From Noviherbaspirillum suwonense (GTDB lineage: Bacteria; Pseudomonadota; Gammaproteobacteria; Burkholderiales; Burkholderiaceae_D), in assembly GCF_900182955.1 (NCBI RefSeq), contig NZ_FXUL01000032.1, forward strand, positions 1-64,000: a stretch of DNA of 64,000 nt, written 5' to 3'. The stretch's first letter is position 1; each line of letters begins with the position of its first letter. Positions 13,861 through 40,253 of this stretch are shown here, piece by piece. Below the pieces are notes generated by a model. It was not told the origin of the DNA and did no database searches. It saw only the letters and a program-made list of their open reading frames with translations. The position numbers and the translations under genes were made by a program.

Positions 13861-15492
13861 ATGGCCTTGCTTAGTCCCAGACTTCCCCCTCCCGCCGCTC
13901 GGCAAGGCGGTCTTTACCGAGAACTCGATGTGCTGGACCGCCTGCAAGCTTCGCTCTCCGACGGGTATGAAATCTTCCACAGTGTGTCGCTGCAGAACGA
14001 CCACGACGGACTGGACCGCCAGCGCGAGATCGACATCGTGGTTCTGGGCCCGGCCGGCAACCTGCTGCTGATCGAAGTCAAGGCAGGAGCGGTGACGCTG
14101 CGCGACGGCAGCATCTACAAGCTGTACGGCAATGGCGAGAAGGACGTGGCGCGCCAGTGCCGGATGCAGTTCAATGCGATGCAGGGTCGGCTGAAGGAAG
14201 CCGGGCTGAACCCGCACATTGCTACCTGCCTGGTATTGCCTGACTACCAGGTGCCGGACGCACACATCGCTGCGATGCAGCGTTCCCGCATCATCGGTGC
14301 GACGCAATACGCGCAACTCGGGTCCCTTGTCCGCGAGATCATGGCTGCTGCAACGGCTACGGATAACGTGGGCGCCTTGCGGCGCTTCCTGCGTAATGAA
14401 TTCCACGTCGTGCCTGATCTATCGGTCATGAGTTTGCAGCTGCGGCAGACTGTGCGTCAGCTATCGGGCGGGCTGGCAGGCTGGGTTCCGCGAATCACTT
14501 CGCCGTCGCGTTGCATCCGGGTGCAGGCAACTGCCGGGTCCGGCAAGACCCAGCTCGCGCACCGCCTTCTCGACGATGCGGTGACGAACGGCCAGGCCGC
14601 TCTTTATGTTTGCTTCAACCGCTCGCTGGCAGACCACATGGTGCGCATCTCGTCTGCGCGGGCGCAAGTGCTGACGTTTCACGAGGCCTGCGTTGCGCAT
14701 CACCGGCGCAAGCATGGAGAACCGGACTTCACGCAGGCCGGAATATTCGCTGAAATTGCTGCGACCTATATTGCCGACAGCGCGGAATTCAATGCGAAAT
14801 ACGACGTGCTGATCGTCGACGAGGGGCAGGATTTCGAGCCGGAATGGCTGCAGAGCTTGCTGACTCAGCTCAAGGACGATGGACGGCTGTATCTGCTGGA
14901 GGACGACAACCAGCGGCTCTATGAACGTGCGCGGTTCGACTTGCCGGAAGCGGTGGTCGTCGATTGCTCGGAGAACTATCGCAGCCCGCGTGCCATTTGC
15001 GATGTGATCAACGCGTTCGGTTTGGCCACGCCGACGGTGCGGTCCTGTAATCCCTACCAGGGCGAGATCCCGGGGTTTCATGTTTATGCGACGCCGGAGC
15101 AGCTTGTTGCGCAGACTGTGCATGCGATCGGTCTGCTACTGGCACAGGGGTTCAGGGTTGAGGATATTGTCGTTCTGACTGGACATGGCCTGAACCGGTC
15201 TGCCCTGCTTGCCCGGGAGACGATCGGATCGTTTAGCACAAGGCGTTTTACCGGGGCTTATGACCGGGATGGGAATCCGGTCTGGACGGCTGGGGAATTG
15301 CTGGTGGAGTCGGTTTATCGGTACAAGGGACAGTCGGCGCCGGCGGTGGTGCTGGCGGAGATGGATTTTGTGGAACTGGGGGAGGCAGAAAGAAGGAAGC
15401 TGTTTGTCGGGATGACGCGGGCACAGGTAGCGTTGGAGGTGGTGGTGTCGCGGGAGGCGGAGAGGTGTTTTGCGGGGGTGCTGGGGGCTTAA
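13861..15492 (+). CDS. NERD-domain UvrD-like helicase
   Basis: A 543-residue fusion of two modules. Residues about 15-130 form a NERD nuclease-related domain (REIDIVVLGPAGNLLLIEVKAG, with the D...E-x-K core). Residues about 215-540 form an SF1 helicase: Walker A ATAGSGKTQL, Walker B VLIVDEGQDFEPEW, a DDNQRLYERA motif, and the C-terminal VYRYKGQSAP plus LFVGMTRAQVAL motifs. NERD-UvrD proteins are thought to act on DNA in repair or defence; the exact substrate is unknown. The start is the ATG at 13861, with no clear Shine-Dalgarno sequence. It is transcribed away from recCBD. Confidence 0.85.
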   Translation: MALLSPRLPPPAARQGGLYRELDVLDRLQASLSDGYEIFHSVSLQNDHDGLDRQREIDIVVLGPAGNLLLIEVKAGAVTLRDGSIYKLYGNGEKDVARQCRMQFNAMQGRLKEAGLNPHIATCLVLPDYQVPDAHIAAMQRSRIIGATQYAQLGSLVREIMAAATATDNVGALRRFLRNEFHVVPDLSVMSLQLRQTVRQLSGGLAGWVPRITSPSRCIRVQATAGSGKTQLAHRLLDDAVTNGQAALYVCFNRSLADHMVRISSARAQVLTFHEACVAHHRRKHGEPDFTQAGIFAEIAATYIADSAEFNAKYDVLIVDEGQDFEPEWLQSLLTQLKDDGRLYLLEDDNQRLYERARFDLPEAVVVDCSENYRSPRAICDVINAFGLATPTVRSCNPYQGEIPGFHVYATPEQLVAQTVHAIGLLLAQGFRVEDIVVLTGHGLNRSALLARETIGSFSTRRFTGAYDRDGNPVWTAGELLVESVYRYKGQSAPAVVLAEMDFVELGEAERRKLFVGMTRAQVALEVVVSREAERCFAGVLGA

Positions 15493-15615
15493 TTTTTGTA
15501 CGCGTTGCATTGTGCCTGTAAGCCAAATCTCAGGCATTAACGGCTAAACCCGGGCCGCTGCCCCTTCCCTACTGAACTTTAAAAGCTGTTCGACCTTTTT
15601 TTACTGACCCACGCA

Positions 15616-16287
15616 ATGTCCAAAATCGATCACGCCTCTTTTGAAGCAACAATATCAGCGCTCACCCAACCACTGAATGGGCAATATCCACGGCCCTGGA
15701 TGACAGATCTTGTCGATCCATTTTCCGCGAGAGTTTTTATCGTGGGGCGCAACCAGGCGAAGGGCTATGACGCTGCACAGTTGACGCATCGCCGTCATAT
15801 GGACGCGTTATTCAGTCGCAATGGAGAATCGTGTCGCAGGCTCTATGAAGAACTGGTTGGAACGTCTTCGCAGACTCGACAGAACACCAACCGCCTGCGC
15901 GATTTGCTGCTGCAAGCGGGTGTGGATTCGGTGCTAGAGACCAATGTCATCTGCTACTCCACGCCAATGAGTGCGATCCTTTCTACGGCTGCCCATGCTG
16001 GCGGCAGAGGGCGCGGCGCCGAAATCTTTCGAACTTTGCTCGAATCTATTCAGCCTCCCGTGCTCATCGTTCATGGAGCCGGGACAATCAAGGATTTATC
16101 CAAGGTGCTTTCGTATGATTTGCCGCCGCCATGCGCCGAGCCTGGAAAACCTGTTAGTGCGCAGATTGGAAACACCACTGTTTTCGTCGTAAGAAGTCTC
16201 GCGCCGACAGAATGGTGGCAATGGCATGGATGGGCATGGTCGCACTTGAAACTCGTTGCTGAGGAAGTTGCTGACTTGCTGAGGTAA
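15616..16287 (+). CDS. Uracil-DNA-glycosylase-like hypothetical protein
   Basis: A 223-residue soluble protein. The pattern VFIVGRNQAKGY near residue 39, a central TNVICYSTP segment and VLIVHGAGT near residue 150 is laid out like motif A, the Asn-containing middle motif and the C-terminal motif of the uracil-DNA-glycosylase superfamily. The canonical catalytic residues are not clear, so activity is uncertain. The fold suggestion is inference from motif spacing only. It stands alone, 123 bp after the NERD-helicase gene, at the edge of an AT-richer stretch. Confidence 0.5.
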   Translation: MSKIDHASFEATISALTQPLNGQYPRPWMTDLVDPFSARVFIVGRNQAKGYDAAQLTHRRHMDALFSRNGESCRRLYEELVGTSSQTRQNTNRLRDLLLQAGVDSVLETNVICYSTPMSAILSTAAHAGGRGRGAEIFRTLLESIQPPVLIVHGAGTIKDLSKVLSYDLPPPCAEPGKPVSAQIGNTTVFVVRSLAPTEWWQWHGWAWSHLKLVAEEVADLLR

Positions 16288-16751
16288 TTTTTGTACCCGG
16301 CGGCAGCGTTTGCAAGGAAGAACGACGTGTTAGTCTGATTGGAATGTCGGTGAATACACGACAACAAATAAATCTAGAAAGAGTTTTGAACCCTATCTGC
16401 CTTAGCGAAAAGCCAAACTATCCAAGCTCCTTTACCTTTGGTTGTCAAGTGATCCGGACGAGCCAGAGAGTTTTTAATATCTCGGATTAACTTAGCGTCG
16501 TGGTGGTTCGATGAATAGGTAAATCATCGACATTATTTAACCGCTCGATAACCGATTTGCAAAAATCGACAGCGAGCATTCCGAAACACTACCCTGCGGC
16601 AATACCCTAAATTAACTATAGGCTTTTACTTAACTACGAGGCATTATTGACGTGCAGAAAATTTTATTGATTCAAAGCCATCTGCGCTAGTCAACGATTA
16701 CATAAAGAAATGTAAAATATTGCACGCAATCTTTAGTTTCAAAGGGCAGCA
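16288..16751. other. AT-rich intergenic region
   Basis: About 460 bp that is clearly AT-richer than the recBCD side and holds no credible open frame. Its 3' end carries AAGGG, the likely ribosome binding site of the small cysteine-rich gene at 16752. No RNA gene, repeat or insertion sequence is visible. The composition suggests that acquired DNA begins near here. Confidence 0.4.
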
Positions 16752-17027
16752 ATGAAAACCAACAACAAAGTACTTAGTAAACGCCCATTCATTCACTGCG
16801 TAAGGTGCAATGAAATGATTAGGTCTGAGGAATTAGCAAAGCATGTCCGAACGGTCCATGCTGACTGCTTACCGAAACCGCTGCCTATGCCTTCATTCCC
16901 AATAAATTTCGGTTCTTCGGCGGCGGGTTACCATAGCAAAAGGGGGACTTCGGAGAAAACAATGTGTAGCGTCTGTGGATCCCCAGCCATTCCAGGTGAC
17001 AACGTTTGTTCAACTCATGCTGGTTAA
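16752..17027 (+). CDS. Small cysteine-rich, probable zinc-binding protein
   Basis: A 91-residue protein with two potential metal sites. The first is a C2H2-like finger, C-x2-C...H-x4-H within HCVRCNEMI and LAKHVRTVHADC. The second is a short C-terminal knuckle, CSVCGSPAIPGDNVCSTH. AAGGG precedes the ATG by about 5 bases. There is no signal peptide or membrane segment. The two sites suggest a nucleic-acid or protein binding adaptor, but the family is not recognised. It is isolated by about 460 bp on each side. Confidence 0.55.
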   Translation: MKTNNKVLSKRPFIHCVRCNEMIRSEELAKHVRTVHADCLPKPLPMPSFPINFGSSAAGYHSKRGTSEKTMCSVCGSPAIPGDNVCSTHAG

Positions 17028-17497
17028 GTCAAGCCTGTTCCAATGACTGCTGACGCATTTTCGTGAAACTGCACCGAATCACCTTGGCTCATACGATCAA
17101 AGAAGACAAGATGTCTTGGTTGTACTTTTAGAGTCTTTCGATCCATCGTCCGACCATCCTCTAATTTTGAAGGTAGGTGGAATTAACCATTTAATGCCCA
17201 GCTCAATGCACTAAACTTTTTCCTTTCTTGTCGAATTTTTGTCGAACCTTTTACAAGATCATAGGTTGCAATCCAAACTGACGATGCGTTAAAGACTCGT
17301 TACAGGCCCCGCATTCCCGTCCCAAGGCGGTCACATAAATCTATTTTGGAACCGCTCTAAAGTATTTCTCCGACCTGTCGTTTACGTATTTGTAATATCC
17401 CAGCCGGCCGCCACTCAGTGAATGCAAAGCCAAGCGGCATTAATAGGCACGTGCAAGAAGGCAGCGTGCCTGCAGCTGACTAAAAAAAGGAATTGTA
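17028..17497. other. Intergenic region, nothing recognised
   Basis: About 470 bp without a credible gene between two small orphan genes. It ends in the ribosome binding site AAGGA before the ATG at 17498. No RNA gene or repeat is evident. Confidence 0.35.
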
Positions 17498-18599: not shown

Positions 18600-18764
18600 G
18601 CAGCATGCTTGGGCCACTTCATTACACAGAGCTAAAATTCTGGCGGCCAGGTCCATGATTTTTAAAGCAGTCATGAGCCAAGAATGGCGTCGCGCTTACG
18701 TAAGCCTCCTGATCCTCAAAAGCTCAGCCCGCTTGTACAATCATTTTTTGGAGGATTAAAGCTG

Positions 18765-19208
18765 ATGCCTATCTTCACTGTCGGATATGAAGGACTGGAC
18801 ATTGACGTATTCATGTCGTTGCTCGCAGAGCACAATGTCGAAACTGTCGTGGACATTCGTGAAATTCCTTTATCGCGTAAACCTGGATTTTCGAAGAAGT
18901 CGTTGACCAGCGCGCTGCATTTCTCTGGCTTCAAGTACGTCCACATGGTAAATCTAGGATGTCCGAAGCCGGTGCGCAATTGTTACCGTGAGGATGGCGA
19001 CTGGAAGCGCTACAAACAGGGTTTCCTGAAACACCTCAAGAAGCAAAAAGCTCCCATCGCCGAACTATCGGACCTCGCAGGTTCGTCGAATTGCGCATTG
19101 CTTTGTTATGAGGCCGACTTTAACTTCTGCCACCGTTCGATGGTGGCCAATGCTGTGCGCGACTACAGTGGGATGCGCGTCGAACACATTCGGGCCGTGA
19201 CCGTCTAA
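18765..19208 (+). CDS. DUF488 family protein
   Basis: A 147-residue DUF488 protein. It has the N-terminal TVGYEG motif, then VVDIREIPLSRKPGFSKK, an LGCPKPVRN segment, and the family hallmark cysteine/His cluster LLCYEADFNFCHRSMVA. The start at 18765 places MPIFTVGYEG first, as in the family, with GGAGG about 10 bases upstream. The biochemical role of DUF488 is unresolved. These genes are commonly found beside restriction-type loci, and here the gene faces the defence-like operon; the last 89 bp overlap the end of the opposite-strand gene at 19120. Confidence 0.85.
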   Translation: MPIFTVGYEGLDIDVFMSLLAEHNVETVVDIREIPLSRKPGFSKKSLTSALHFSGFKYVHMVNLGCPKPVRNCYREDGDWKRYKQGFLKHLKKQKAPIAELSDLAGSSNCALLCYEADFNFCHRSMVANAVRDYSGMRVEHIRAVTV

Positions 19209-20034
19209 ACAACGAGATCTGCACTACTTCGACAAGCTCCTGCTTAGGCGGATATACCAGACTGATGATCAGCCACTGGTCTTGAAACCGGTGCTGGTTG
19301 CCCAGTAGGTACATCAAGTCTCTTCCGCCAAGCGTTTTCTCCAGTTTGTCGCGGAACGGTGCTTCCCAATTGACGCCGTAGCTTTGGCGGCAGTTCCAAA
19401 ATAATGCGCCAGCTTCCCAATCGACACTCTTGTGCCTGTGCTCCTTCTCGCCCTCTGGCGTGTCACATACGTACCGGTAGTAAAAGTCGAAAGGCACTTT
19501 GCGCAGTTCTTTTACTTGCCGCTTCGCCTCGGCTTCGGAAAAGAGATCGCCCTGCATCTGCTCACGCATCAGCTTCTCTTTTTCCTCGTCCGTCCAGTCG
19601 TGGTTTCGAGCCTTGACGATCTCGAGGCCTATCAGCCTTTTCGGACGTAGCAGCGCGATAGACAGCCCATCGGTGATCCGCCCTGATTCGATGGAATCAA
19701 AGCTGTGAAATGCCGGGATCTTGTCCAACCACTCCCAACGGAAGGCCCAACCCTTCTTGGCATCGATTATGTCTCCACAGGTAATTGTGTCTATATACAG
19801 CTTGTGACTTTCGGGACGATGATCCTTGTTGGCTTTCTCGACCCGGACATCAATCCATTGCCATTTCTTGAATTGCTGACCCTGCTCGATCATTCGGAAC
19901 GGCACGGGGTACAAACGGCGCATCGAACCGTCCTGACTAATGCCCGCAACACACGATGTCTCGATGTACTGTGCGCTGGGCGAGGGGTATGTCTTCGCCA
20001 AAACAAGGATGCGCTCCAATTGACCCAATGCCAT
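19120..20034 (-). CDS. Unknown protein, last gene of defence-like operon
   Basis: A 304-residue soluble protein beginning LERILVLAKTYPSPSAQYIETSCVAG. Its Trp/Tyr-rich central region includes WEWLDKIPAF and FYYRYVCDTPEGEKEHRHK. I do not recognise a characterised family. Immediately downstream of the res gene (33 bp) and convergent with DUF488, it looks like a dedicated component of the cluster. The last 28 residues are basic, are read from the antisense strand of the DUF488 gene, and probably reflect loss of an earlier stop after the natural end QISLF. A nucleic-acid-binding role would fit the context but is a guess. Confidence 0.6.
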   Translation of the reverse strand: MALGQLERILVLAKTYPSPSAQYIETSCVAGISQDGSMRRLYPVPFRMIEQGQQFKKWQWIDVRVEKANKDHRPESHKLYIDTITCGDIIDAKKGWAFRWEWLDKIPAFHSFDSIESGRITDGLSIALLRPKRLIGLEIVKARNHDWTDEEKEKLMREQMQGDLFSEAEAKRQVKELRKVPFDFYYRYVCDTPEGEKEHRHKSVDWEAGALFWNCRQSYGVNWEAPFRDKLEKTLGGRDLMYLLGNQHRFQDQWLIISLVYPPKQELVEVVQISLFRRSRPECVRRASHCSRAQHWPPSNGGRS

Positions 20035-20067
20035 CGTTATTCCCCTCTCTCCCGATGTTGATTCGCC

Positions 20068-22068
20068 TTACAACAGAACCCGATAGTGTCGGTTGTCCGC
20101 GTCGGTTGACTTCATGAGCCGGTACTCCATGCCGCTCGCCACAGCAATTTGCTGGGCGAAGTCCTTCTTTGCCTGTACCACGGCATCTTCGATCTGGTTG
20201 TCAGCCTTTACTTCAACGATGACATACTTCAGGCTGCCATCCGGCTCTTCGCGCTGAAAAATGAAGTCGGGGTAATAGCTGCGGACAGTATGTGATCCCG
20301 GATCGATGTACTGGATAAAAAAATCGGACTGACCGTGGGTTAGCATTCCGGTGAAGTAGACCTTCTTCACCCTCTTCTCCCGCAGTAAGTCCCAGAACAA
20401 CCAATTCTCCGAACCGGAGTCAAAACAGTAGGTGTCGAGATGGAAGCTCTTGGCGCGTTCTTCATCAGTGAGTTGCAGGTCGAGCCTGCGCACGATCTTG
20501 TTTTTCGCCGCTGTCACTTCGTAGTAGCCGTTCGAGGGCAACTTTATCAGCTCGACCTCGTGTTCTTCGGTCTGCTGAGACTCATCGAGGTCATAGAGCT
20601 GACGGAAAAGTCGAGGGATGATTTCGTCGTACAGCAGCTCGTTGAACTCGTTGGTAATAGCCACAAGTTCATCGGTACCTTCCTTGGTCACGTCAAGCAG
20701 CTCCTCAATTTCCAATGGCTTTCGGTTGAGGTAACGCGACACCTCGGCCACCAGCGTCATGCGCGAAAAGGTTCGCTTTTCACGGCGCGCTGTCAGGTCG
20801 AAGGTGCGGCTGTCCGACGCACGTGCTGCATCGGCTGCGGTCAGTCCTACCTGTTGGGTTTCGATCAACCGGTACTTTTCGATAAGCGTGTTCCAAGTCT
20901 CGCGATCAGCACGCTCGGGCACCAGGTCCTGGCCCGGTATGGGTTGCTTTTCGCGCATCAGGTACTGCTTCCGCACCCGCACCAGTTTGATCTTTACCGG
21001 AGGCGCGACCACGCGCACTTCAACGCGTTCTTTGTCGCTGCCCGTCTTCTGTAACTCGTCGACGCTGATGCGGAAATTTTGCTGCAGCTCGTCATTCAGG
21101 GTGTTCAGGTTGTCGTTCGAGAGGAATACATGGCCGGTATGCTGAGCCTCCCCGATGGCGCGCAAACAGCGCATCGTGGCTTGCAGGACGAATACTTTTG
21201 ACTTCGGCTCGCGGAATAGACCCACCCCGAACAGCGAGCGACAGTTCCAGCCCTCGCGGCCCTTATTGACAAGTAGGACGAACTGCTTTTCTGAGCCTTC
21301 AGTATCTAGGCGATTGAACTCGCGGATGTCGTCGTTGGTGGTGAGCTTGTCGTCGCCGACGTTGACCAGGATGCGCGAGGTCGGGATACCATGCTTGTAC
21401 AGCGCCCGCTCGACCGCTGGTTTCAGCTCACCGGTCAGCTCGTTAACGGTGGCGGCAAAGAAAGCCAACTTGGGCAGCAGGCCCTCCGGGCGCAACTCGC
21501 CTGACTCCTTTAGAAAAGCCTCGACGGCAATGTCCACAAACTCGTCGGTACGGGTGTTGCCATAGCCGTGCAGCACCACCTTTTTAAGGTAGTTCTTTTC
21601 GATGGCCTCTTTCAGGCCATAGGCGTATACCACCTCCGGTAGCACCTCGCGCCCGACGTATGGTGTGCCGGTATAGTTGTAGCAGGCCACGACGCGGGTT
21701 CCTGCTGCATTGAGGCTGGCCGCGAGGAGGTCGATTGTGGTACGCAGGCTGGTGTCGGCTTCCTTCGAGCCAACGCCCATGTCCTTGGCCAGCGCCTTCC
21801 CAAAGGCGTGATGAGCCTCGTCCACGTAGATGCCTAACTGCTCTAGGCGGCGCAGTTTTTCGAAGCGCTGGTTAGTGGTCAGTTCGCCTTCCTCTTCCGG
21901 CTGGTCGAAGTTGTAGAGATCGGCGGCGTCAGCATAGACGCCGGTGGCCGTGAGCGTTTCGCCAGTGGCGCTGAACAGCTTGTTCACGGCGGTCTTTTCC
22001 TTGTGCTGGCGCTTAAGGATAATCTTCTGTGTGTTAGAAACGATAATGTTGAAACGCGAGCGATCCAT
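20068..22068 (-). pseudogene. Type III Res-like helicase-nuclease, C-terminal part
   Basis: The C-terminal three-quarters of a Res-type SF2 helicase. It shows the DEAH-like box YVDEAHHAF, motif III TGTPYVG, an RecA2 domain with NKGREGWNCRSL and QATMRCLRAIG, and a C-terminal PD-(D/E)XK nuclease (YYPDFIFQ...VIVEVKAD). The frame is open upstream to an in-frame TAG at 22099-22101, and the same frame continues beyond it as the N-terminal part (22099-22785). The intact gene would encode about 905 residues. The ATG at 22068 is internal, so any product made from it would lack the Walker A motor motif. Confidence 0.85.
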
Positions 22069-22098
22069 CGTGTCCAGCGACGTACCTGCTTCTTCAAG

Positions 22099-22785
22099 CT
22101 AATGAAAGCGCAGGTGCGTTGTCAGGAAGTTGACGTACTCCGGCGGCACCACGCGGGTGAGGTCGAAGGACTCGATTTCCTTCAGTGAATGCAGCACGGT
22201 CTTGTCCGGCGCGAACACCAGTGCATTGTGGCAGTAGCGCGCATCCTTCTCGAACTTGTTGCCAAGCAGGAACTCGTAGAAAATGCAGGTCGCCATGAGG
22301 ATGGTTTTGCCGGTACCCATCGTCAGCGCAAAGATGTAGTTTGGGTAGACGCGCGAGTTCTTGCGCATCTTGTCGAACAGCACTTTGTACGAGTTCAGTT
22401 CCAATTCATCACTTTCGCCGAACTCGAACATCTCCTGCCCAGCGGTCCCGAGGAAGGTGCCGAACTTGCGGCCCTCAAACTTGCCGCTGCGTTTGTACCA
22501 CGCCTCGAAGATTTCCTCGACCTTGCCGTTGCCGAGAAACTCTTTGAGGAAGACATAGGTTTCCAGCGCCTCAAACTGCGGCTGGCGTAGGAAGGCTTTG
22601 GGATTCTTTTCCGGATTGTTGAAATCGAGGAACTTGCGGGTCAGCTCCTTGTAGTTCTGCCGGATCACGCCCCGGTTGTCTTGGTAGAACCGCCACAGAA
22701 AGCGGAAGAAGGCGAAGTCGAGCGACGCGCCCGATGTGTTGGCCGCCTTCGCACTGACCTTGGCCGCTGTGCGTTTAGTTGCCAT
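22099..22785 (-). pseudogene. Type III Res-like helicase, N-terminal part ended by amber codon
   Basis: A 228-residue N-terminal piece of the Res-like protein. It carries a helical DUF-like lead (FLWRFYQDNRGVIRQNY) and Walker A LTMGTGKTILMAT near residue 155. It ends at TAG in the context THLRFH-stop-LEEAGTSLDTMDRSRFN. The reading frame does not change across the stop, so a single base change (for example in a Tyr codon) explains the break. It overlaps the end of the methyltransferase gene by 11 bp, as expected for a coupled mod-res pair. Truncated here, it has an ATP-binding loop but no DEAH box. Confidence 0.85.
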
Positions 22786-24286
22786 TGCTGACGGTCCCTT
22801 CCCACGATTCCGACAGCAAGTCGGTGATCTTCACGCGAATGGTGCCCGCGTCGTCCGGAACCTTGTACACGCCCTTGACCAGATCGTCTTTGCCCGGAAT
22901 GTCCACCACTGCTGGCTGCAGTACCGCGCCGTCGTAGTTCCAGTCGATCAGCACGCTCTCGGCCAGCTCCTTCCAATCCTCGACCGACTCCTTCTGGAGT
23001 GAGAGCTTTTGCAGCAGATTCATCGGGTAAAACTTTGCGATGACCAAATCCCCCTTCTTGATGGCAACCTTTGCTTCAGAGTCGCGCTTGAACTCGAGAT
23101 TGGCCTTGTCGCGCAAGATATCCACCACCTCCACGTCGATCTTGAAAGGCTTCGTAGCTAGTTCCAGTTGGGCGGTCAAGTCTGGTTCATGGCCCATACA
23201 TACGAGTGAGATTTTCTCGACCGGGCGGTTAGGGTTTTCGTTCTGTTTGCGCTGCCACGCCTTGTAGTCAAAGCCCGCGATCAGCTCGTTCAGGTCGGCG
23301 CGCGTGGCAATGCGGTTGACGGGCATGATCTTGACCATGCGCCCATCCTTCTCACCGTCGAACACGGTGCTGAACTCCAGCTTCTGCACTTCCAACGCTT
23401 CGATCAGCAGTTCTTTGGCCTGAACCGGATTACGGAAAATGTCGTAGTGGTTGACGTTGTAAACCTCGAAGCCAATGAAGTGCTTGCCATCACCATCAAG
23501 CGGTTGTTGGCGCAGTTCATTTGCAATACCGAGCAACCGCTTGGTTGTCGTCTGAACAGCGCCCAGATTGATGTCTGCGCCAATGAAACGGCGACCACAT
23601 TTCATGGCAGCGGCTTGGGTTGTTCCCGACCCCATGAAACAGTCGAACACAAGCTCGCCGGGACGCGTAGAAGCTTTGATAATTCGTTCCACCAAAGCTT
23701 CTGGCTTCTGCGTCGGATAGTCTTGGCGTTCTTTGGCAACAGGATTCACAGGCGGAATGTCATCCCACACTGAATCAATGATATCGCCCTCAACTTCGTC
23801 AAGGTAGATAACTCTTGCACCACCGCCAGTCGGATTCACATCGTCGCGGTAAAGACGGCCATTTTCGTCCTTCTTGAATCGCTTTATGTAATCCGGCCCG
23901 TGGGGGCGGAACTGAACTTTCCAGTAGTAGTCTTCTGTTCGGGCGTATGAAAATATTGTGTCGTGCTTCTGCGGGAATTTCCTAGACGTGGACCGTTTAA
24001 ATCCAAAGTAACTCCAAATTATTTCATTTCTGAAATTGTTTGCGCCAAATACTTCATCGAGGATCATTCGGATGAAGTGGTTCTTATGCCAGTCACAGTG
24101 GACGTAAATACTCCCTTCTTTAGAGAGGAGTTCTCTGGCCAACACGAGTCTTTCGTACATAAACTGGAGATACTCGTCGTTTGTCCAAATGTCCGTGTAC
24201 TGTTTTTCTTCAAAAACGCTCTGTTCAGTTTCGGCTTGATAACCTTGTAACTTGGATTTTTTTCTTATAATCTGCCTTTGAATCAA
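22775..24286 (-). pseudogene. Type III Mod-like DNA methyltransferase, C-terminal part
   Basis: Most of a beta-class amino-methyltransferase. The family order is kept: the DPPF motif lies in the preceding fragment, and the SAM-binding motif FDCFMGSGTT lies here near residue 214, followed by GRRFIGADI. The TQKPEALVERII motif is also typical of type III Mod and related enzymes. There is no true start; the frame becomes open at the A7 tract (plus-strand T7, 24257-24263), where removing one A joins KADYKKK to SKLQGYQAETEQ. The C-terminal 250 residues are probably target recognition and Res contact. Its stop overlaps the res start. Confidence 0.85.
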
Positions 24287-24926
24287 ACGGCGGATCGATG
24301 TAGATCAAATCAACCTTGCCTCGGAATTTTTTGAGCAGATGGCTCATCACCTGTAGATTGTCGCCCCAAAATATCTTGTTGCGCCATCCATCAACTTCTT
24401 CACTGTGCACTTCCTTGAGTTGCGCTGGAAAGTACTGAGTAGACGTAAACGGGCGTTTCCCGCGCCAGCTCAGCATCGGGTACCCCTTGACTGGGGCGAA
24501 CTCGTATTTCTCGATGCTGGTCTTACCGACATCAGCGGCAGTTAGCGGTAGGGGGGGCTGCGAAGGATGTAGGTTACTCAAGATTCTTCTCTGTTGTGGA
24601 TGGTTGACTTTATGCGTGCTGGTAGGTGATCGGCGCGGCGGTATCTGCCTTGGTGTCGGAGTGGATGAAGCGGCTTTCAGGAGCCGAGCAATTAACGCAT
24701 TCTTCCGTCCCGTCGACTCGACGCCCGCAGCCTCGCAAACTTGCTTGACCTCGGACTCGCCGAGATAGCCAAGAAGGGTCTCTGGCAGGCATCGCCGCGC
24801 AGACAAGATCGCGTTGATCAACGCCTGACGGTTGCGCTTGTCATTAACGGACAGCTCAAAGTCGGCAATGATCTGTCGAAGCGTTGGGACGCTGGAAATT
24901 GTGAGGATGTGCGGCTTTAGTCTCAT
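24225..24926 (-). pseudogene. Type III Mod-like methyltransferase, N-terminal part
   Basis: A 233-residue N-terminal piece starting at the ATG at 24926, whose ATGA overlaps the stop of the helicase-nuclease gene. Residues about 45-88 resemble a SAP-type DNA-binding helix pair (LGESEVKQVCEAAGVESTGRKNALIARLL), followed by a Pro/Ser-rich linker. The catalytic motif IYIDPPFDSKADY is at about residues 208-220. The frame shifts just after this at a run of seven A and ends within 20 codons. Type III mod genes are often phase-variable through such tracts, but A7 is short; simple decay or sequence error is equally possible. Confidence 0.8.
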
Positions 24927-26263
24927 TTTGGTTTGGCGAAATTCCAATTCTTGTTGTCGCAGTAAGCGCGCATATCGCAGTCCTGGCACAGCTTGGCCGG
25001 ACGTGCGGCAATCTGATAGTCCTGCCGCTCGATACGCGCCACGATGTCATCAAAGCGCGCGATTGTTTTGCCGATAGCGCGATCGTCCTTAGTGAAGGAC
25101 ACGTAGGGGTTTCCCCCGTCCTCGCCGGTGTAGTACAGGTGCATCCGGCTGACTTTCTGACCAGTGCGCTGCTCGACCAGATGGGCATATACCTCCAACT
25201 GGTGCTGGTACTGTTGGATTCGGCTGCGATCCTTTTCCATGTCGGGCTTCTTCTCCGACTTGAAGTCGATGATCTCAACCGTGTCGTGCTCGCCCCGAAT
25301 GAGGTCGACGCTGCCTTTAAGGATGTACTGATCCTTGACCAACGAAATCTCGACCTCGGCCTCTTTGATGCGATCCCAATTGCCGTTCTCGCGCTCGTAG
25401 TAGCGCATCACGTGCAGCAGCGCTGCCTGCTGCGAACTGGGCGCGAGGTACACGCGCTCCTTCTTGGAGAGCAGCGCGTAGTTGGCCGAAAACCAGTCCT
25501 TGATGGCATTGGAGCTTAGGCTGCCTTCTTCGCCACGCAAAACGGTCTTGTGAATGTCCTCGATGGTCTGATGTACCAGCGTTCCGAACAGCATCGGGCT
25601 TTCACGGATCGCTGCAAACCCCAGCTCCTTGAAGAAGCGGTACTGCTCCGCGCAGTTTTCGAACACGGTTATGTGCGAGGTGAACGAGTATTCGCGCTTA
25701 AGGTTGATCTGCTTGACGGCCTCATAGCTGAGGGCCGCGAGGTCAACATCGCGCCAGCTTGGCAGTTCGTAGAACAGGCGGTCGAAGTATTTGGACGGCG
25801 ACCTGCCGTGCCCTTGCTTTTCTTGCGCGGCCAGCATCAGCAGGTTCTGCGCGCGAGAGAAGGCTGTGTAGAACAGCCTCCAGAAGTCGAAGTTCTTGAT
25901 GTCGTCTAGCGGCTCGAAGCGTTCCTTCGAAAGGTAGCCACCGTCCTCCAGCAGCACGTCTAGTGCGCCGTATTGCTTGCGCGGTACTGCCTCCAGCGAG
26001 CCGCAGACGACGACAGGGAACTCCAATCCTTTGGACTGGTGGATTGTGAGGAAAGATACACAGCCCTTGGGCGCGTACTCGGCCTCATCCTCGTATTCGC
26101 CGATGCCGCCGTCCACAAGAAAGCGCAGGAACTGGTTGAACAGGTCGCGAATGTTCTTTTCCAGCCATTCGGGATTGAGCACGCTGACAAAATGCAGATA
26201 TTCGAACTTGGTGAGCAACTTGGAGAAGGTGCCGAGGTTGCGCGCAGCGCGACCCTTATCCAC
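24923..26263 (-). pseudogene. UvrD helicase / Fe-S nuclease fusion, C-terminal part
   Basis: The second half of a UvrD-type helicase with a C-terminal nuclease. Helicase motifs V and VI are present (FLTIHQSKGLEFP; WRLFYTAFSRAQN). They are followed by a PD-(D/E)XK domain with FGTLVHQTIEDIH, GSVDLIRG and EIIDFKSEKK. Cysteines NCAEQY and the terminal LCQDCDMRAYC cluster fit an AddB/Cas4-type 4Fe-4S site. The frame is open upstream to the in-frame TAG at 26393-26395 and is the same frame as 26393-27838; the ATG at 26263 is internal. The intact protein would be about 972 residues. Confidence 0.85.
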
Positions 26264-26392
26264 GCCCTTTACGGCATCCTCGACGAGGAAGCGCGCGAAC
26301 AGCGGAAACTGGAGCAGTTGGTAGAACAGGCCGGAGAACGAGTAGTCGGTGTTCTGGGCAAGCGCGGCGTGGCGCTTGGCCAGCGGTCGCGC

Positions 26393-27838
26393 CTAATCTA
26401 GCAGTGGCTTGTTTTCCGGCTTGCGCAATTCCGTGGTAAACGCCGTGAAGCACTGTTGGTCGTAGTAGTCCCAGATTGGAAGCGTGACACCTTCGGCCCA
26501 CGCCCGCACCTTTGGAAACTGCGGGAACAAGAAGATCAGCGCGCCAATCATCAGGCGAATTTCCTCGCGCTCGAAGAACATGTTCGAGCGCGGCGAGAAC
26601 ACGGGGACGCCCTCCGCTTCGAGAAATCGCGCCAGCTTAACCACTTTCTCGTTCTTGACCGAACGGAACAGGAAGGCAACTTGATTCCAGTCCGTTAGCT
26701 TGCCGGACGCATTCAGGACTTTAAGAAAGGCCAGCACCTCAGCGTGCCAGTTGGTGGTTTCGTCCTTGTTGTCAGTGGCAGTCAGCCGCAGCGCGGTGGG
26801 CATGTCGGGGAAGTCACCCTCTCGCGGGAGTATCTGCTTTGCAAAGCGGAAGCTGCGTGAGCCGTCATCCCACGTCTGCTCGCGCATCCACTCGTTGTAG
26901 AAGCGGATAATGTCTGGATGCGAGCGGTAATTCACGGAAAGCGTAACGCGCTTGCACTGGCCCTCGTCGAACAGCGCGGGGAACTCCAGGATGTTGCGGA
27001 TGGTGGCCCCGCGGAAGCGGTACAAGCCTTGGTCGTCGTCGCCTACAACGCACAGATTCCGTTTGTCGCCAGCCAGAAGCAGGAGAATGCGCTCTTGAAT
27101 GGTGTTGGTGTCCTGGTACTCGTCGACCATCAGGTAGGTCAGCTTCTCGCGCAGTTGCGCCAGCACGTCTGGGCACATTTCCAGCAAACGCAGCGCCTCG
27201 TATTGGATGCCGGAGAAGTCAAGCGAGTTGTTTTCGTGCAGCAGATCCTGATACTTGTTGAAGCACGCGGCCAGCGCACGGATTTCCACTTCGGGGGCAG
27301 CCGCCAGCGTGGCAGGGTCAATCGCTTCCTCGCTGACCTTGTTAAGCCACTTAAGAAGATTTTCCGACTGCGCCCAGCGGCCCAACTGATCGCCTCCAAT
27401 GACGAGCTGAGCATCGGGCAGTTCGCGAAAATCTTTAATGCGCTGGTAAAGGAAATACTGCTGGTCGAATTGGTCAAATAGCGTGAAGCTGCGCTTGAGT
27501 CGCGTGAACTCGCGGTAGTCCTCCAGCAAACGCAAACATATCGAATGGAACGTGCCGAGGTACATTTCGTTCAAGTTGAACTGGATGCCCAGTTCCGCCA
27601 GCCGGTTGGAAATGCGAGTAGTTAGCTCGCGCGCGGCTTTGTCTGTAAACGTCACCACAAGCAGCGACTCGGGAGCTACCCCTTTGTGGGTAATGAGGTA
27701 AACAATGCGCTCGACTAGCGTGAACGTCTTGCCGGATCCGGGCCCCGCGATGATTAACACCGGGCCATCGGTGGCCAAGATCGCTTCCAGTTGCTGGGGA
27801 TTAGCCTTGCTTTGAAGAGTTACGGTACTAGCAGTCAT
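26393..27838 (-). pseudogene. UvrD-type helicase, N-terminal part ended by amber codon
   Basis: About 481 residues of an SF1 helicase. Walker A is IIAGPGSGKTFTLV near residue 32; then come VTFTDKAARELTTRI, Walker B YLMVDEYQDTNTIQ, the motif III region GDDDQGLYRFRGA and motif IV SVNYRSHPDII. The frame ends at TAG after NKPLLD and continues in the same frame as ARPLAKRHAALAQNTDYSF, so one substitution (for example in a Trp codon) broke the gene. The start is the ATG at 27838; an alternative GTG lies at 27847. It is first in the operon and divergent from the ATPase gene at 28077. Confidence 0.85.
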
Positions 27839-27975
27839 TCCGCCCACGTGTCGAATGTTGTGGCCAGGCGGAAGACGATGCGCTTACCTGCCTTCAGGTA
27901 GGCGCCCGCTTCGTAGATCGTAAGGATCGTGTCCCGTTGGTCGTTCATATACTTGCCTGTTCGCCTATCGCTTAG

Positions 27976-28005
27976 TTGGTCTGCTGGCGTATCTTGGCAT
28001 AAAAT
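27976..28005 (+). promoter_or_regulatory. Candidate sigma70 promoter for the sacsin-like ATPase gene
   Basis: TTGGTC at 27976-27981 and TAAAAT at 28000-28005 are separated by 18 bases, an acceptable sigma70 arrangement. They lie about 70 bases before the GTG at 28077. The region 27848-28076 is the only gap between the two divergent arms of the cluster and must also drive the leftward operon. Confidence 0.35.
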
Positions 28006-28076
28006 GTTTCGATTTGGAAAAATTAGGCAAACTTGGCACTAACTTTGAGGCCGAAATGCTGCATTAAGGGGAAGCT

Positions 28077-31000
28077 GTGGCGTCTAACTACGAAACAATC
28101 TGTGAAGAAAACCGGGGCCGTTATGGCACCGAAGGCGCTCAAAAATCCGGGGGGCTGGCTGCCGGGCTCTACGACAACCGCACGCATTTCATCTTCGAAC
28201 TGCTACAAAACGCCGAGGACGCCCTTGGACGGCGCGGCGATTGGAAAGGTCCACGCAAGATTACGTTTGCGCTGGCACCGACCAGCTTGGCGCTATCCCA
28301 CTTTGGCAAGCCGTTCGACCAAGCCGACGTCCGAAGCGTGTGTGACATCGCTGAAAGCACGAAGAACGAACTCTCCATTGGTCGATTTGGTCTTGGTTTT
28401 AAGTCGGTTTATACAGTTACCGATCTTCCGGAAATTCACTCTGGCGATGAGGATTTCGCCATTGAAGATTACGTTTTCCCGAAAGCGATAGGGCGCACGG
28501 CGCGCGCGATAGATGAAACGCAAATCGTCCTGCCCTTAAAGGAAGGAGACAGGACCGCGTTACAGGAAATCACTGCAGGATTTCGAAACTTGGGCCCCGG
28601 CGCGCTACTTTTCTTGCGTCACATTGACGAAATCAACTGGAGCGTTGAAGGTGGCGCAACCGGTTTCTATATTCGCAACAGCCCCGAATCGCTCGGCTCC
28701 AACGTCCAGCGCATTACGGTGATTGGCCAAGAAAGCGGCCAGCCCGAAGTTGATCAAAATTGGCTGGTCTTCCACCGGGATGTGTTCTCCGTCGGACAAC
28801 AAAAGGTGGGGCGCGTGGAAATCGCCTTTTCGTTGGTGGCCGTAGAAAACGTCTCTGATCGGTGGGTTGTGCAGTCACTGAGCAGCTCACCCTTAGTAGT
28901 TTTCTTTCCGACCGTGGTTGAGACCCACCTTGGCTTTTTGGTTCAGGGCCCGTATCGCACGACTCCCAGTCGGGACAACATTCCGCCAAATGAGCCTTGG
29001 AACCAGCATCTAGTAAAGGAAACGGCCAGTCTATTAGTAGAGGCGATGCAATGGATGCGGGACAAGACAATATTGGATGTCTCCGCGCTGAGTTGTCTAC
29101 CACTAGACCGCAAAAAATTTCCGCAAAATTCGAGGTTTGTGCCGCTGTTCGACGCGGTCCGTCATGCCTTTCTAAGTGATCGGTTATTGCCCCGCTCCGA
29201 TGGCGACTATATAACGGCGAGGCACGCAAAACTGGCGCGTACAAAAGAGCTGCGAGAGTTGTTTGGCCCAGGACAGATGACAGCACTGTTCGGCTCAGAA
29301 GGCATCTCGTGGCTGTCTGGCGATATAACCCAAGACAAAGCACCAGAGATTCAGCAGTATCTGACGAATGAGCTCGACATCGCATTAATGACGCCAGCAA
29401 AACTGGTGCCAAATTTGACCAAGTCATTCCTTGAGGCGCAGCCCGATGAGTGGGTGTTGCGCCTTTACGAGTTTCTGAACGGCCAAGAGGCAGCGGTGCG
29501 TCGCCATCTCGACACGATTCCATTAGTCCGTCTTGCCAATGGCACCCACGTTGTCGCACGGGAGAATGGCGAGGCAAAAGCTTTCCTGCCTAGTGCCCTC
29601 GAAACAAGCTTTCCGACCGTACGCCGAGCGGTGTGTGCCTCGCCAGAAGCGTGTGCTTTCCTAGGTTCGTTGAGGATTACTGGACCCGATCCGGTTGATG
29701 ACGTGATTCGAAACATCTTGCCGAAGTACCGGCAAAACGAAGTTGAATTGAGCAATGATGTCTACGCCGCCGATATCGAACGCATCCGCTCAGCCTTCAG
29801 TACAGACTCAGCAACGCAGCGGGAAAAACTGCGTTCAGCCCTACGTGAAACTGCGTTCGTGAGGGTCGTAGACAGCGGTAACGGAAAAGGTTCTATGGCC
29901 AAGCCCGGCGACATCTACATTGCCACGGATCGACTAAAACAGCTCTTTGCCGGTATTACAGGGGTCTTCATCGTTGATGATGCCTACGACTGCCTGCGCG
30001 GCGAGGATACAAGGGAACTACTTGTGGCTTGCGGCGCAAGTCGTTACCTAAGTCCACGTCCAGTCGTCTCTACACTGGGAGCGGACGAGAAGGCGAAGAT
30101 CCGTAAAGAAGCTGGACTTGAACGGGCAAGCCGGGAGAATCAGCCTGAAGATTTTACTATTCATGGGCTTGCTCAGTTGCTGGAGATCTTGCCAAAGCTC
30201 GATGTTGACGATGCGAAAGTCAGGGCAGAATTACTGTGGGATGCACTGGCTGATTTGGAAGCGCGCGGCACAGGTGCCTTCTACGGCTCTTACAAATGGA
30301 GCTTTTTTCATGAAACGAAAACGGCCAGATTCGACGCCGCTTTTATTCAGACGCTTAATCTGGTCGCATGGGTTCCATGTGCGAATGGAGCACTTCAGCC
30401 TCCTGGCCTTGTAGTATTCGACACTCTTGGATGGAAGCCCAATCCTTTCCTGCTGACTAAGCTCGCCTTCAAGCCGCCAATCATCGACCAGCTTGCCAAG
30501 GCGGCCGGCATCGATCCTGCAGCGCTTGACTTGCTTCGCAAATGCGGCATTACCAACATTACGGAACTAGCAGCCCGATTGGGCATTCCTGCCAAGGAAG
30601 AGTCTAATGTTTACTCCAACGCCCAAGACCTTTACGACCCTGACATGCCAGAAATCAAGCCTGGGACATATGATCCTGACAGTAGTGACGGTGCGACAGG
30701 AGGCGCGGGAGGCGGCGGCAACAAGCACTTTGGCACGAGGGAACAACCTGGAGAGACTACCAGTGGGGGCGCCTACGGTGGCTCAGGCAGCAACAGGAAT
30801 CATACCGGCAGAGGTGTAGGAAATGGAGACGGTGGTCAAGGAAAACGGCCGCCGGGTCATGCTGGCGGGCGGCCATTCATTTCATACATTGGAGCTCATC
30901 CGAATGACGTGGAACCTGATCCAGACGGGCTCGAGCAAGCCGCGCGTATGCAGATTGAAGAGCAAGCGATTAGACTGATTACCAGCCTTGAACCACAGCT

Positions 31001-31310
31001 GCGTCGCACAGCAAACGGAAATCCAGGGTTCGACCTTTACGAAATTGATCATGGCGGTAAGCCAATTCGATGGGTCGAGGTCAAATCGATGACTGGTAGC
31101 CTTGATGAGCGTCCTGTGGGACTTTCGCATAAACAGTTCGAGTGCGCACGGGAGCATAGTGCAGCGTACTGGTTGTACGTCGTCGAATACGCGAGCGCCC
31201 CTGGGAAAGCACGGGTACTAAGGATCCAAAACCCCATTGCCCATGCCCGGACGTTTACTTTCGACAAGGGCTGGGCAAAAATCGCTCATATGAAACCGCC
31301 GGCCGAGTAA
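28077..31310 (+). CDS. Sacsin/Hsp90-type GHKL ATPase with DUF3883 C-terminus
   Basis: A 1077-residue protein starting at GTG with AAGGGG about 6 bases upstream. Its N-terminus is a Bergerat-fold ATPase of the sacsin type: N-box FELLQNAEDA at residues 40-49 and G1 box SIGRFGLGFKSVY near 100-112. A large helical middle follows, then a Gly/Ser-rich linker at about 880-940. The last 110 residues match the DUF3883 pattern (FDLYEIDHGGKPIRWVEVKSMTG), a restriction-nuclease-like fold. Such proteins are found beside restriction and defence genes. It is the only intact large gene of the cluster and presumably the sensor or motor switch; this role is inferred. Confidence 0.8.
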   Translation: MASNYETICEENRGRYGTEGAQKSGGLAAGLYDNRTHFIFELLQNAEDALGRRGDWKGPRKITFALAPTSLALSHFGKPFDQADVRSVCDIAESTKNELSIGRFGLGFKSVYTVTDLPEIHSGDEDFAIEDYVFPKAIGRTARAIDETQIVLPLKEGDRTALQEITAGFRNLGPGALLFLRHIDEINWSVEGGATGFYIRNSPESLGSNVQRITVIGQESGQPEVDQNWLVFHRDVFSVGQQKVGRVEIAFSLVAVENVSDRWVVQSLSSSPLVVFFPTVVETHLGFLVQGPYRTTPSRDNIPPNEPWNQHLVKETASLLVEAMQWMRDKTILDVSALSCLPLDRKKFPQNSRFVPLFDAVRHAFLSDRLLPRSDGDYITARHAKLARTKELRELFGPGQMTALFGSEGISWLSGDITQDKAPEIQQYLTNELDIALMTPAKLVPNLTKSFLEAQPDEWVLRLYEFLNGQEAAVRRHLDTIPLVRLANGTHVVARENGEAKAFLPSALETSFPTVRRAVCASPEACAFLGSLRITGPDPVDDVIRNILPKYRQNEVELSNDVYAADIERIRSAFSTDSATQREKLRSALRETAFVRVVDSGNGKGSMAKPGDIYIATDRLKQLFAGITGVFIVDDAYDCLRGEDTRELLVACGASRYLSPRPVVSTLGADEKAKIRKEAGLERASRENQPEDFTIHGLAQLLEILPKLDVDDAKVRAELLWDALADLEARGTGAFYGSYKWSFFHETKTARFDAAFIQTLNLVAWVPCANGALQPPGLVVFDTLGWKPNPFLLTKLAFKPPIIDQLAKAAGIDPAALDLLRKCGITNITELAARLGIPAKEESNVYSNAQDLYDPDMPEIKPGTYDPDSSDGATGGAGGGGNKHFGTREQPGETTSGGAYGGSGSNRNHTGRGVGNGDGGQGKRPPGHAGGRPFISYIGAHPNDVEPDPDGLEQAARMQIEEQAIRLITSLEPQLRRTANGNPGFDLYEIDHGGKPIRWVEVKSMTGSLDERPVGLSHKQFECAREHSAAYWLYVVEYASAPGKARVLRIQNPIAHARTFTFDKGWAKIAHMKPPAE

Positions 31311-32133: not shown

Positions 32134-33363
32134 TCAGCCCGCATCGAGATAGTCGCTACACCAGAGCCCGCCCAGCGGCAGCCCCTCCGCCACAAGGTTT
32201 CTGACTACTTCATATTCAGAAACCCGGCGAATCGTTGAAAAACCCTCCTGCCCCTTCTCAAGGATCCACACCTCCTCCGGCGACAGCGCATCGATGAAGT
32301 GCGGATGATGCGTGGTCACAAAGATCTGCGATGCGTTTTTCTTGCCCGTGGCATGGCTGCGGAATTCCTGCGCCAGCGACTCCAGCAGCTTGTGGTGGAG
32401 CCCGTTCTCCGGTTCCCTGATGCAAACGAATGGCGGCGGTTCCGGATCTTCCAGCAGCAAAAGATAAGCAAACATTTTCAGCGTGCCGTCCGACATTTGC
32501 TGTGCGAAAAACGGGTCGTCGAACGTCCCATCGTTAAAACGCAGCAGAACACGCTTTTCCGCGGTTACCTCGGTATCGATCTTGGCGATGCCCGGAATCT
32601 TGCTGGCAATGCGCGCCAGGATGCTTTTGAAACGGTCCTTGTGTTTGCGCTCCATGAACTGCACCACGTTGCCAATATTGTCTCCACGCACGTTCAAATG
32701 CCGTTGAGGCCCGGCGCTAGGCAGACTACGCGCCGCATCCGGGTAAAAATAAGAGAAATACCACCCCTTCAGAAAATCCCGAAAACGTTTGATGCGCGGG
32801 TGCTCTTTCAACGTTTTCAGGGTGGCAATTCCCAGCTGGCGCAGGTCGGTCAGCTCGACGACTGATTGAGTGCGGTCCTCTTCACCCTCGATTTCGACCG
32901 CCTCTTCGCCGGCCCAGGCCAGCCCCTTGCCGCGATCCAGTCTCAGAAAAGGAAAAGGGCGCCCATGGGTCTGCCCCTTGCGCCGCTGTTTCAGCAGTTC
33001 GAATGCCACATATGGCCGGCCCGTGTCGTCCAGATTGATGATCAGTTCATAGCTGATAGCCCGCTCGTTGGGCGCTTCCCGGTAATAAATTTCGAAGCGG
33101 ATCGGACCATCAACGCCTTTGGACCGCAAGCGTTCGAACCCTCCCCGCTGTTTAATATTGCACGCGGTTTCCACATCGCTTGCCAGGCAGTCAACCACAA
33201 AGCCGAAGGCATCGAGCAGGGAGCTCTTACCCACCCCGTTCTTGCCGATCACCGCCGTGATCGGCGTCAGCGGCTTCCTGGCAGCCTGCCCCGAGAGTTT
33301 GCCCAGTGACACATCGCGTAAGGCGCGAAAGTTTTGAACGTGGAAACCTTCGATTATGGCCAA
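32134..33363 (-). CDS. AAA-type ATPase, OLD/RecF-like (AAA_21)
   Basis: A 409-residue ABC-class ATPase. The N-terminal IEGFHVQNFRALRDVSL and Walker A VIGKNGVGKSSLLD lie near residue 40. The C-terminal half has a signature-like QQMSDGTLKMFAYLL, Walker B-like VCIREPENGLH and a final H-motif VTTHHPHFIDAL. These are the parts of RecF/OLD-like predicted ATPases, with no Toprim domain. It starts at TTG, supported by a strong GAGGAG a few bases upstream. It is a single gene; members act in defence or repair, usually with a partner nuclease that is not seen here. Confidence 0.75.
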   Translation of the reverse strand: MAIIEGFHVQNFRALRDVSLGKLSGQAARKPLTPITAVIGKNGVGKSSLLDAFGFVVDCLASDVETACNIKQRGGFERLRSKGVDGPIRFEIYYREAPNERAISYELIINLDDTGRPYVAFELLKQRRKGQTHGRPFPFLRLDRGKGLAWAGEEAVEIEGEEDRTQSVVELTDLRQLGIATLKTLKEHPRIKRFRDFLKGWYFSYFYPDAARSLPSAGPQRHLNVRGDNIGNVVQFMERKHKDRFKSILARIASKIPGIAKIDTEVTAEKRVLLRFNDGTFDDPFFAQQMSDGTLKMFAYLLLLEDPEPPPFVCIREPENGLHHKLLESLAQEFRSHATGKKNASQIFVTTHHPHFIDALSPEEVWILEKGQEGFSTIRRVSEYEVVRNLVAEGLPLGGLWCSDYLDAG

Positions 33364-40128: not shown

Positions 40129-40205
40129 GAAGTTGAGATGTCTGCATTGTCGTGGTGGCTTCGCTCACGTGGCGTGCGCTTCTTCCACATACTCGTAATA
40201 GCTTC

Positions 40206-40242: not shown

Positions 40243-40253
40243 GTACGCGGGGA

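Follow-up and report, generated by a model that had tools for sequence, protein, structure and literature searches.

Fusions of a UvrD-type helicase to a Cas4-like nuclease were catalogued in a survey that we take to be the work of Hudaiberdiev et al. In the section of that paper dealing with the fusion, its most common neighbourhood is formed by the Mod and Res genes of Type III restriction-modification (R-M) systems, and a function as a defence component is proposed (PMC5704561). Two other publications concern a further partner: parts of a 2008 study place other GHKL ATPase families (MORC and paraMORC) in Type III-like R-M operons and propose DNA looping between recognition and cleavage sites (PMC2292703), while part of another describes DUF3883 as a novel restriction endonuclease domain, encoded in an operon with R-M components (PMC3710099). 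Here we analyse a locus of Noviherbaspirillum suwonense (assembly GCF_900182955.1, contig NZ_FXUL01000032.1, positions 1-64,000 of the forward strand; this 64,000-nucleotide stretch is hereafter the window), in which uvrD-nuclease, mod and res genes adjoin a gene for a sacsin-type GHKL ATPase ending in DUF3883 (NOV_C). Comparison with its relatives suggests that the three-gene core is probably a Type III-like R-M system supplemented by an AddAB/Cas4-like resection enzyme, its copy in this genome being broken, and supports the sacsin-type ATPase as a real but optional partner of it.

The frame map of the window gives the leftward order uvrD-nuclease, mod, res and a gene for a 304 aa protein, flanked by the divergent sacsin/NOV_C gene and a convergent DUF488 gene (Table 1). 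The first two genes are joined by an ATGA overlap, mod and res overlap by 11 bp, and a gap of 33 bp separates res from the 304 aa open reading frame (ORF). A first-pass annotation of this DNA had claimed the same order, strands, joints and flanking genes, all of which are seen in the map, and Pfam bore out its families (UvrD with PDDEXK_1/Cas4-like, N6_N4_Mtase, a TnsA-like nuclease on res, SACS with NOV_C, and DUF488). It was silent on the fact that three of the four leftward genes are broken, uvrD and res each by one in-frame TAG stop codon and mod by a frameshift; the sacsin gene is intact.

Table 1. Coordinates of the features discussed; positions refer to the window unless a locus handle is given. 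SF1 and SF2, helicase superfamilies 1 and 2.
Feature	Positions	Strand	State or evidence
uvrD-like SF1 helicase with C-terminal Cas4/AddB-type PD-(D/E)XK nuclease	24923..27838	-	broken, in-frame stop 26393-26395
mod-like DNA methyltransferase with SAP-like N-terminal stretch	22775..24926	-	broken, frameshift within 24228-24304
Hypervariable target-recognition region of mod	23741..24040, approximate	-	hand projection from L005 residues 181-280
res-like SF2 (DEAH) helicase with C-terminal TnsA-like PD-(D/E)XK nuclease	20068..22785	-	broken, in-frame stop 22099-22101
sacsin-type GHKL ATPase with C-terminal NOV_C (DUF3883) nuclease-like domain	28077..31310	+	intact
PDC-M19B, the 304 aa ORF; accessory, rarely linked	19120..20034	-	PADLOC 1.6e-55
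DUF488 gene, PDC-M19A; accessory, rarely linked	18684..19208	+	DUF488 5.6e-27; PDC-M19A 2e-33
Distant or partial sacsin relatives overlapping an upstream large gene by about 4 bp	L116 7038-13702; L117 20-6837; L094 32-4599; L096 2-4569		

Relatives were collected from two sources. A plasmid search with the methyltransferase as query gave 51 records, 16 of them covering at least 80% of the query, from which eight loci were picked by hand (L006 and L007 are near-identical in their core). A scan with the Res alignment, restricted to one genome per species, gave 209 confirmed relatives, and the best 80 were kept; these belong to nine phyla (58 Pseudomonadota, 6 Chloroflexota, 4 Bacteroidota, 4 Bacillota, 2 each of Thermodesulfobacteriota, Cyanobacteriota and Poribacteria, and 1 each of Myxococcota and Verrucomicrobiota). 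When partners were sought by tblastn in the resulting 88 loci, UvrD was matched in 81, the methyltransferase in 87, the sacsin-type protein in 24 (in L083 weakly and over part of its length), the 304 aa protein in five and DUF488 in four.

The order uvrD-methyltransferase-res on one strand was found in 75 of the 76 loci whose sequence extends 5.2 kb or further upstream of res, the lone exception being L065. Both gaps between match ends are below 200 nt in 63 of these 76 loci and wider in 12, with a maximum of 4.9 kb (L089). All eight plasmid loci carry the three genes on one strand (with two extra ORFs between uvrD and methyltransferase in the Spirosoma locus L008), and the sacsin-type, DUF488 and 304 aa genes are absent from them. 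Among 369 genomes sampled evenly from the class, in which at most two candidates per genome were scored, so that misses are possible, Res was present in five: the N. suwonense genome itself, G133, G249, G258 (a fragment) and G416 (a C-terminal remnant). The same genomes, minus the remnant-bearing G416, contain this UvrD subfamily. Co-occurrence in these genomes and the conserved order therefore support the view that uvrD-nuclease, methyltransferase and res constitute one near-obligate unit. Chance neighbourhood within a defence island, with no functional unit involved, would suit the 304 aa and DUF488 genes, and other defence candidates do lie nearby, but it is very improbable for the core, whose order is kept over nine phyla. 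A megablast search of 20,395 Escherichia coli records with the Enterobacter hormaechei locus (L072) gave no match. Three Res matches were found in phage records, one of which (PV036426.1, 355-2895) covers 97% of Res at 48% identity.

The window mod product matches N6_N4_Mtase (1e-46), and its DPPF motif precedes FxGxG (beta order); an N-terminal SAP match of 23.5 bits lies below the cut-off of 23.9. A methyltransferase profile built from seven relatives best matches Type III Mod structures (6k0w, 4.8e-32; EcoP15I 4zcf_A, 9e-31). The features by which a Type III Mod is recognized, namely beta order, a recognition region placed between the motifs and similarity to EcoP15I Mod, are all found here. 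For the alignments we retained 80 methyltransferase, 68 UvrD, 86 Res and 21 sacsin rows, excluding truncated or stop-bearing ones. Among 25 closely related rows, pairwise identity falls to 0.14-0.33 in Mod residues 181-280, while the rest of the protein shows 0.58-0.97, save residues 1-20 (0.35) and 101-120 (0.42); in the same rows mean identity is 0.87 for UvrD and 0.855 for Res. Between L016 and L030 (Silanimonas lenta) the difference is 2.3% for Res and 1.2% for UvrD, as against 66% for the recognition region; L017 and L030, by comparison, differ by 2.7% in this region and by 9.4% in Res. Over 19 loci with all four genes, the distance correlation is 0.93 between UvrD and Res, 0.81-0.82 between either and sacsin, and 0.20-0.27 with the recognition region. 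Exchange of this region between near-identical loci is the pattern expected of a specificity subunit that brings new specificities into a fixed machine. Such an exchange, seen in the present loci, does not appear in the section text of PMC5704561.

The UvrD pieces of the window match UvrD-helicase (7.8e-75), PDDEXK_1 (1.3e-23) and Cas_Cas4, and PF12705 together with UvrD was matched on an intact relative as well as on the window pieces. The helicase motifs, the nuclease and four cysteine positions are conserved, the last in an arrangement that we presume to be the AddB/Cas4 pattern. The protein likely belongs to the published fusion subfamily, judged against the text of that survey, since both combine a Cas4-like (pfam12705) nuclease with a UvrD helicase beside Mod and Res (PMC5704561). 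Because this context is already in print, the core is not undescribed, and the first-pass wording was too strong on this point. The section differs in the partners that it lists, which are WYL, HTH and Schlafen-like proteins and include no sacsin or other GHKL protein, MORC ATPases being named there only for a Dcm/Vsr pair (PMC5704561). A Gabija assignment, raised by a PADLOC GajB match, was rejected, as this match lies mainly in the helicase part. The lone GajA-like match is weak (41 bits) and falls in an AAA_21 ATPase (32134-33363, minus strand) that fits PADLOC HEC-01A far better, over its full length (609 bits), and this ATPase did not recur as a cluster.

The third core protein is the most diverged. 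Window res matches Tn7_TnsA-like_N (1.6e-08); ResIII was matched in two intact relatives (26.9 and 25.1 bits, cut-off 22.5), the window pieces being below its reach, and the nuclease signature E...PDF...ExK is invariant in 26 of 26 rows. An AlphaFold2 (AF2) model of Res (predicted local distance difference test score, pLDDT, 74.9) is matched by RadD, by a TFIIH helicase and, at rank 6, by EcoP15I Res (4zcf_C, E 3.6e-9). The core thus resembles Type III R-M, as exemplified by EcoP15I Mod/Res, in its beta-order Mod with a central recognition region and apparently in its SF2 Res with a C-terminal PD-(D/E)XK nuclease. It differs from the two-gene mod-res arrangement in the uvrD-nuclease gene that precedes mod almost without exception, and in a far diverged Res with a TnsA-like nuclease. 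The earlier statement that the locus is not classical R-M is accordingly half right: the near-obligate third gene and a Res that, in the two intact relatives scanned, matched no PADLOC model speak for it, the Type III-like character of the core against it. A separation from BREX, DISARM and Druantia is supported, as no PglZ or DUF1998 Pfam family was found at E 0.001 in the ten ORFs scanned. The PADLOC search proposed with that annotation matched TmtA (sacsin), PDC-M19A/B and GajB. As the two intact Res proteins scanned gave no PADLOC match, such loci may be scored as lone methyltransferases.

Several observations weigh against this interpretation of the core. The loci were found via a Res anchor, and hence the presence of Res in them is circular. 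Seven of the 88 have no UvrD match; L033, L044 and L076 are contig-edge cases, and in L063-L066 (cyanobacterial and Chloroflexota-type records) no UvrD occurs in the 0.4-4.2 kb before the methyltransferase match. The TM-scores of the Res model to EcoP15I Res are low (0.31/0.42), and, at E 0.01, neither did the Res profile match any solved chain by sequence nor did the two intact relatives match any PADLOC model. The UvrD-Cas4 fusion is also recorded with Dcm and as a stand-alone gene in the section cited (PMC5704561, 2017). The sacsin-type gene, scored in the 66 loci with at least 9 kb upstream, is absent from 44 of them, which means that the core needs no sacsin. Finally, the window's own core copy cannot work as it stands.

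The breaks themselves might be sequencing or assembly errors in a functional locus. The mod frameshift lies beside a run of A, recC, about 6 kb away, is also split, and near-invariant positions, defined from the 68 UvrD, 86 Res and 80 methyltransferase rows, are otherwise retained in the window pieces (UvrD 239/240, Res 171/171, methyltransferase 87/87), the sole lost position being at the uvrD stop. We consider such errors unlikely, because two of the three breaks are in-frame stops, six 20 kb samples of the genome show ordinary open frames (at a coarse look), and the second genomic copy of the locus is broken differently, by a large deletion. Reassignment of the TAG codon was set aside, as mod is also frameshifted and the second copy deleted. 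The retained positions indicate that the core pieces look fresh apart from their breaks. Ratios of nonsynonymous to synonymous substitution (dN/dS) are low, at 0.065-0.127 for the window sacsin and 0.05-0.11 for four core pieces (the mod piece being outside this set), and carry little weight, since many pairs approach saturation at synonymous sites.

From the gene set, family relations, catalytic signatures and recognition-region exchange we infer the following sequence of steps in phage defence. Mod would methylate a short DNA site, picked by its swappable target-recognition region, as a self mark. On unmethylated incoming DNA it would recruit Res, an ATP-driven SF2 motor predicted to cut by means of its TnsA-like C-terminal nuclease, and the UvrD-Cas4-like helicase-nuclease might then unwind and degrade the DNA from the cut, like AddAB or RecB. 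In the mostly proteobacterial branch, the sacsin-type GHKL ATPase with its NOV_C nuclease would join as a further sensor or effector that couples or backs up these steps. It has also been considered that the UvrD-nuclease and sacsin function in DNA repair or in maintaining an element, which would make the locus an epigenetic or plasmid-addiction module and not a phage defence. An ancillary, repair-like role is suggested for the fusion in the section of PMC5704561, several loci reside on plasmids, and that of the window lies by genes for an integrase, ParA, ParB and TrfA. This explanation is nevertheless improbable, as invariant Res nuclease residues and an exchanged recognition region are expected of a restriction system under phage selection.

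In the 22 of these 66 loci that have a sacsin-type gene, it is divergent from uvrD in 20, with 136-407 nt between match ends, while it lies 3.5 kb off in L029 and behind res in L048. The expected conserved neighbourhood was thus recovered for the core genes and, for sacsin, in a third of the loci scored. On a Res tree, the 23 sacsin-bearing rows (window included) fall inside one branch of 37 rows, nearly all from Pseudomonadota. The sacsin state requires at least eight changes, five of them forced by well-supported branches, compared with 19.2 in shuffles (computed on 64 of the 66 loci, leaving out L059 and L090, neither of which has sacsin). With so few changes, the gene was probably gained and then often lost.

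The window sacsin-type protein (1077 aa) matches SACS (2.6e-14) and NOV_C (2e-07). Residues E41..N45 of the ATPase box and D986..E1001-V-K1003..Q1020 of NOV_C are invariant in 22 of 22 full-length rows, including the window and the second genomic copy described below; the rows of L013 (internal stop), of L029 and L049 (both truncated) and of L083 (a weak match) fall outside these 22. The NOV_C residues form a PD-(D/E)XK-type signature. A structural model (pLDDT 64.3) matches HSP90 chains and sacsin SR1, and a PD-(D/E)XK nuclease is absent among the 50 structure matches listed for it. The C-terminus looks like a nuclease on the basis of NOV_C, the invariant residues, the predicted strand-helix order and the relevant part of PMC3710099. 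The DUF3883 described there is fused to an SNF2 helicase, and the present one to a sacsin-type ATPase (PMC3710099). The MORC/paraMORC operons are alike in combining a GHKL ATPase with an SF2 helicase, a nuclease and a methylase; they involve a different GHKL family, and the part of the text concerned mentions neither sacsin nor DUF3883, its references to UvrD being to do with MutL (PMC2292703).

Nine PADLOC TmtA models (1063-1782 positions) match partial stretches of the window sacsin at 41-206 bits. We take these models to represent Tiamat, with which the protein appears to share a sacsin-type GHKL N-terminus and a related C-terminus. Tiamat is a stand-alone single gene. The present gene could likewise be a free-standing defence gene whose only tie to the core is a common divergent promoter region, a view favoured by these matches, by the many loci in which the core occurs alone, and by the second copy of the locus in the same genome (6.45 Mb, 78 contigs). 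On contig C6 (L103, 8709-13188) an open sacsin gene, 72% identical to that of the window, accompanies a core remnant that joins an early stretch of uvrD directly to the end of res. Both cores of this genome are broken and both sacsin genes are open, retaining 97.8% and 98.1% of the invariant positions (89.1-100% in the other 20 rows). The retention of sacsin, twice, without a working core is the chief observation against its being a mere subunit, and is also expected of a free-standing effector.

Distant relatives of the sacsin-type protein (30-37% identity) are likewise found away from this core. No close relative was detected in 72,556 plasmid records at E 1e-30, which gave five distant partial matches. 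Four of the six distant or partial relatives checked overlap an upstream large gene by about 4 bp (Table 1); this upstream gene matches a DrmD model in L116 (404 bits), and in L094 and L096 it presumably encodes a helicase, judging from a motif. It is possible that these pairs are two-gene helicase and ATPase systems.

A stand-alone role for the sacsin-type gene of the present locus nevertheless appears somewhat unlikely, given its constant place and orientation in 20 loci and the fact that its pairwise distances track those of Res (r 0.81 over 19 loci). In a sample of 398 genomes of the phylum, sacsin matches occur in seven, including the genome of origin and three at 36-37%; that of G626 (72%) stands beside a complete core, that of G533 is 50% identical, and G735 has a fragment with no core within the 15 kb read. 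Hence, in the 369 class and 398 phylum genomes (samples that may overlap), both full-length matches of at least 50% outside the genome of origin adjoin a uvrD-methyltransferase-res set. The gene is near uvrD in L113 and L114 as well, unlike a stand-alone Tiamat, and yet is kept without a working core in its own genome. L114, in G533 (5185-17157, minus strand), is a compact, co-directional operon of a methyltransferase (33% identical to that of the window, in parts), a BPTD_3080-family restriction enzyme (1129 bits, cut-off 800), a different UvrD-nuclease (26%) and, as last gene, 3 bp after the UvrD-nuclease, sacsin. This operon is a divergent version of the same combination of four protein types, seen in one genome so far. 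Another GHKL protein, BbrUII/HgiDII-related (160 bits, under the cut-off of 550), is encoded after res in the complete locus L113 (2767-4536, minus strand).

We tentatively propose, as a possible though not the favoured outcome, a restriction class of four proteins, with an HSP90/sacsin-like ATPase that carries a nuclease of its own as the dedicated partner of Mod, Res and the UvrD-Cas4 enzyme. Such a set might have come together on two or more occasions, in one case with the ATPase gene divergent to the core and in another with it at the end of a divergent methyltransferase-BPTD_3080-uvrD operon (L114), and the ATPase might license or couple cutting to resection, or back it up as an effector that outlives the core.

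The 304 aa ORF and the DUF488 gene are the two members, PDC-M19B and PDC-M19A, of one PADLOC pair. The pair lies downstream of res in L013, L016, L025 (Extensimonas vulgaris) and L057; L018 has a fragment, and in L106 the pair accompanies a res remnant. Proteins distantly related to that of the 304 aa ORF (31-34% identity) occur in five other genomes of 274, none of which figures in the list of genomes with a Res match. When four relatives were translated, the frame was found to end at residue 272-277 of the match, so the last 28 or so residues of the window ORF are a run-on; the idea of a conserved antisense overlap with DUF488 was dropped, as in these relatives the first frame ends before or near the overlap. 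On these sequence comparisons the pair is an independent module that accompanies the system on some occasions and is incidental to it. Of the single functional unit claimed at first, uvrD, mod and res remain, with sacsin as an optional addition, and these two genes are removed.

The surroundings include a phage-type integrase with DUF3701, ParA, ParB and a TrfA-type replication initiator at 37547-46031, from which the neighbour of the defence genes looks like an integrated plasmid. At 257-3560 (minus strand) a pair without any Pfam family matches the PADLOC candidates PDC-M61B (772 bits) and PDC-M61A (575 bits). A NERD-domain helicase (13861-15492, plus strand) adjoins recC (10186-13631, minus strand), which is split into two overlapping frames (own 749 aa) and is a single open frame of 1147-1259 aa in all four matching genomes among 14 relatives; recB and recD look open.

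In the open-licence PMC literature we found no name for the three-gene set, no sacsin partner and no recognition-region exchange, an account in subscription journals or preprints being one that could be missed. What appears new, by comparison with the known context of the core, is thus the sacsin-type partner and the exchange of the recognition region.

In the usual view restriction enzymes only cut, the clean-up being left to the host RecBCD or AddAB. If the reading of the core as a Type III-like system with its own resection helicase-nuclease is true, such a system would degrade what it cuts, independently of host enzymes that phages inhibit, and the widespread, compact three-gene set makes this idea directly testable. 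The sacsin partner would, moreover, bring an HSP90-like ATPase-nuclease into restriction, extending a link to GHKL ATPases that parts of the 2008 study proposed for other families (PMC2292703).

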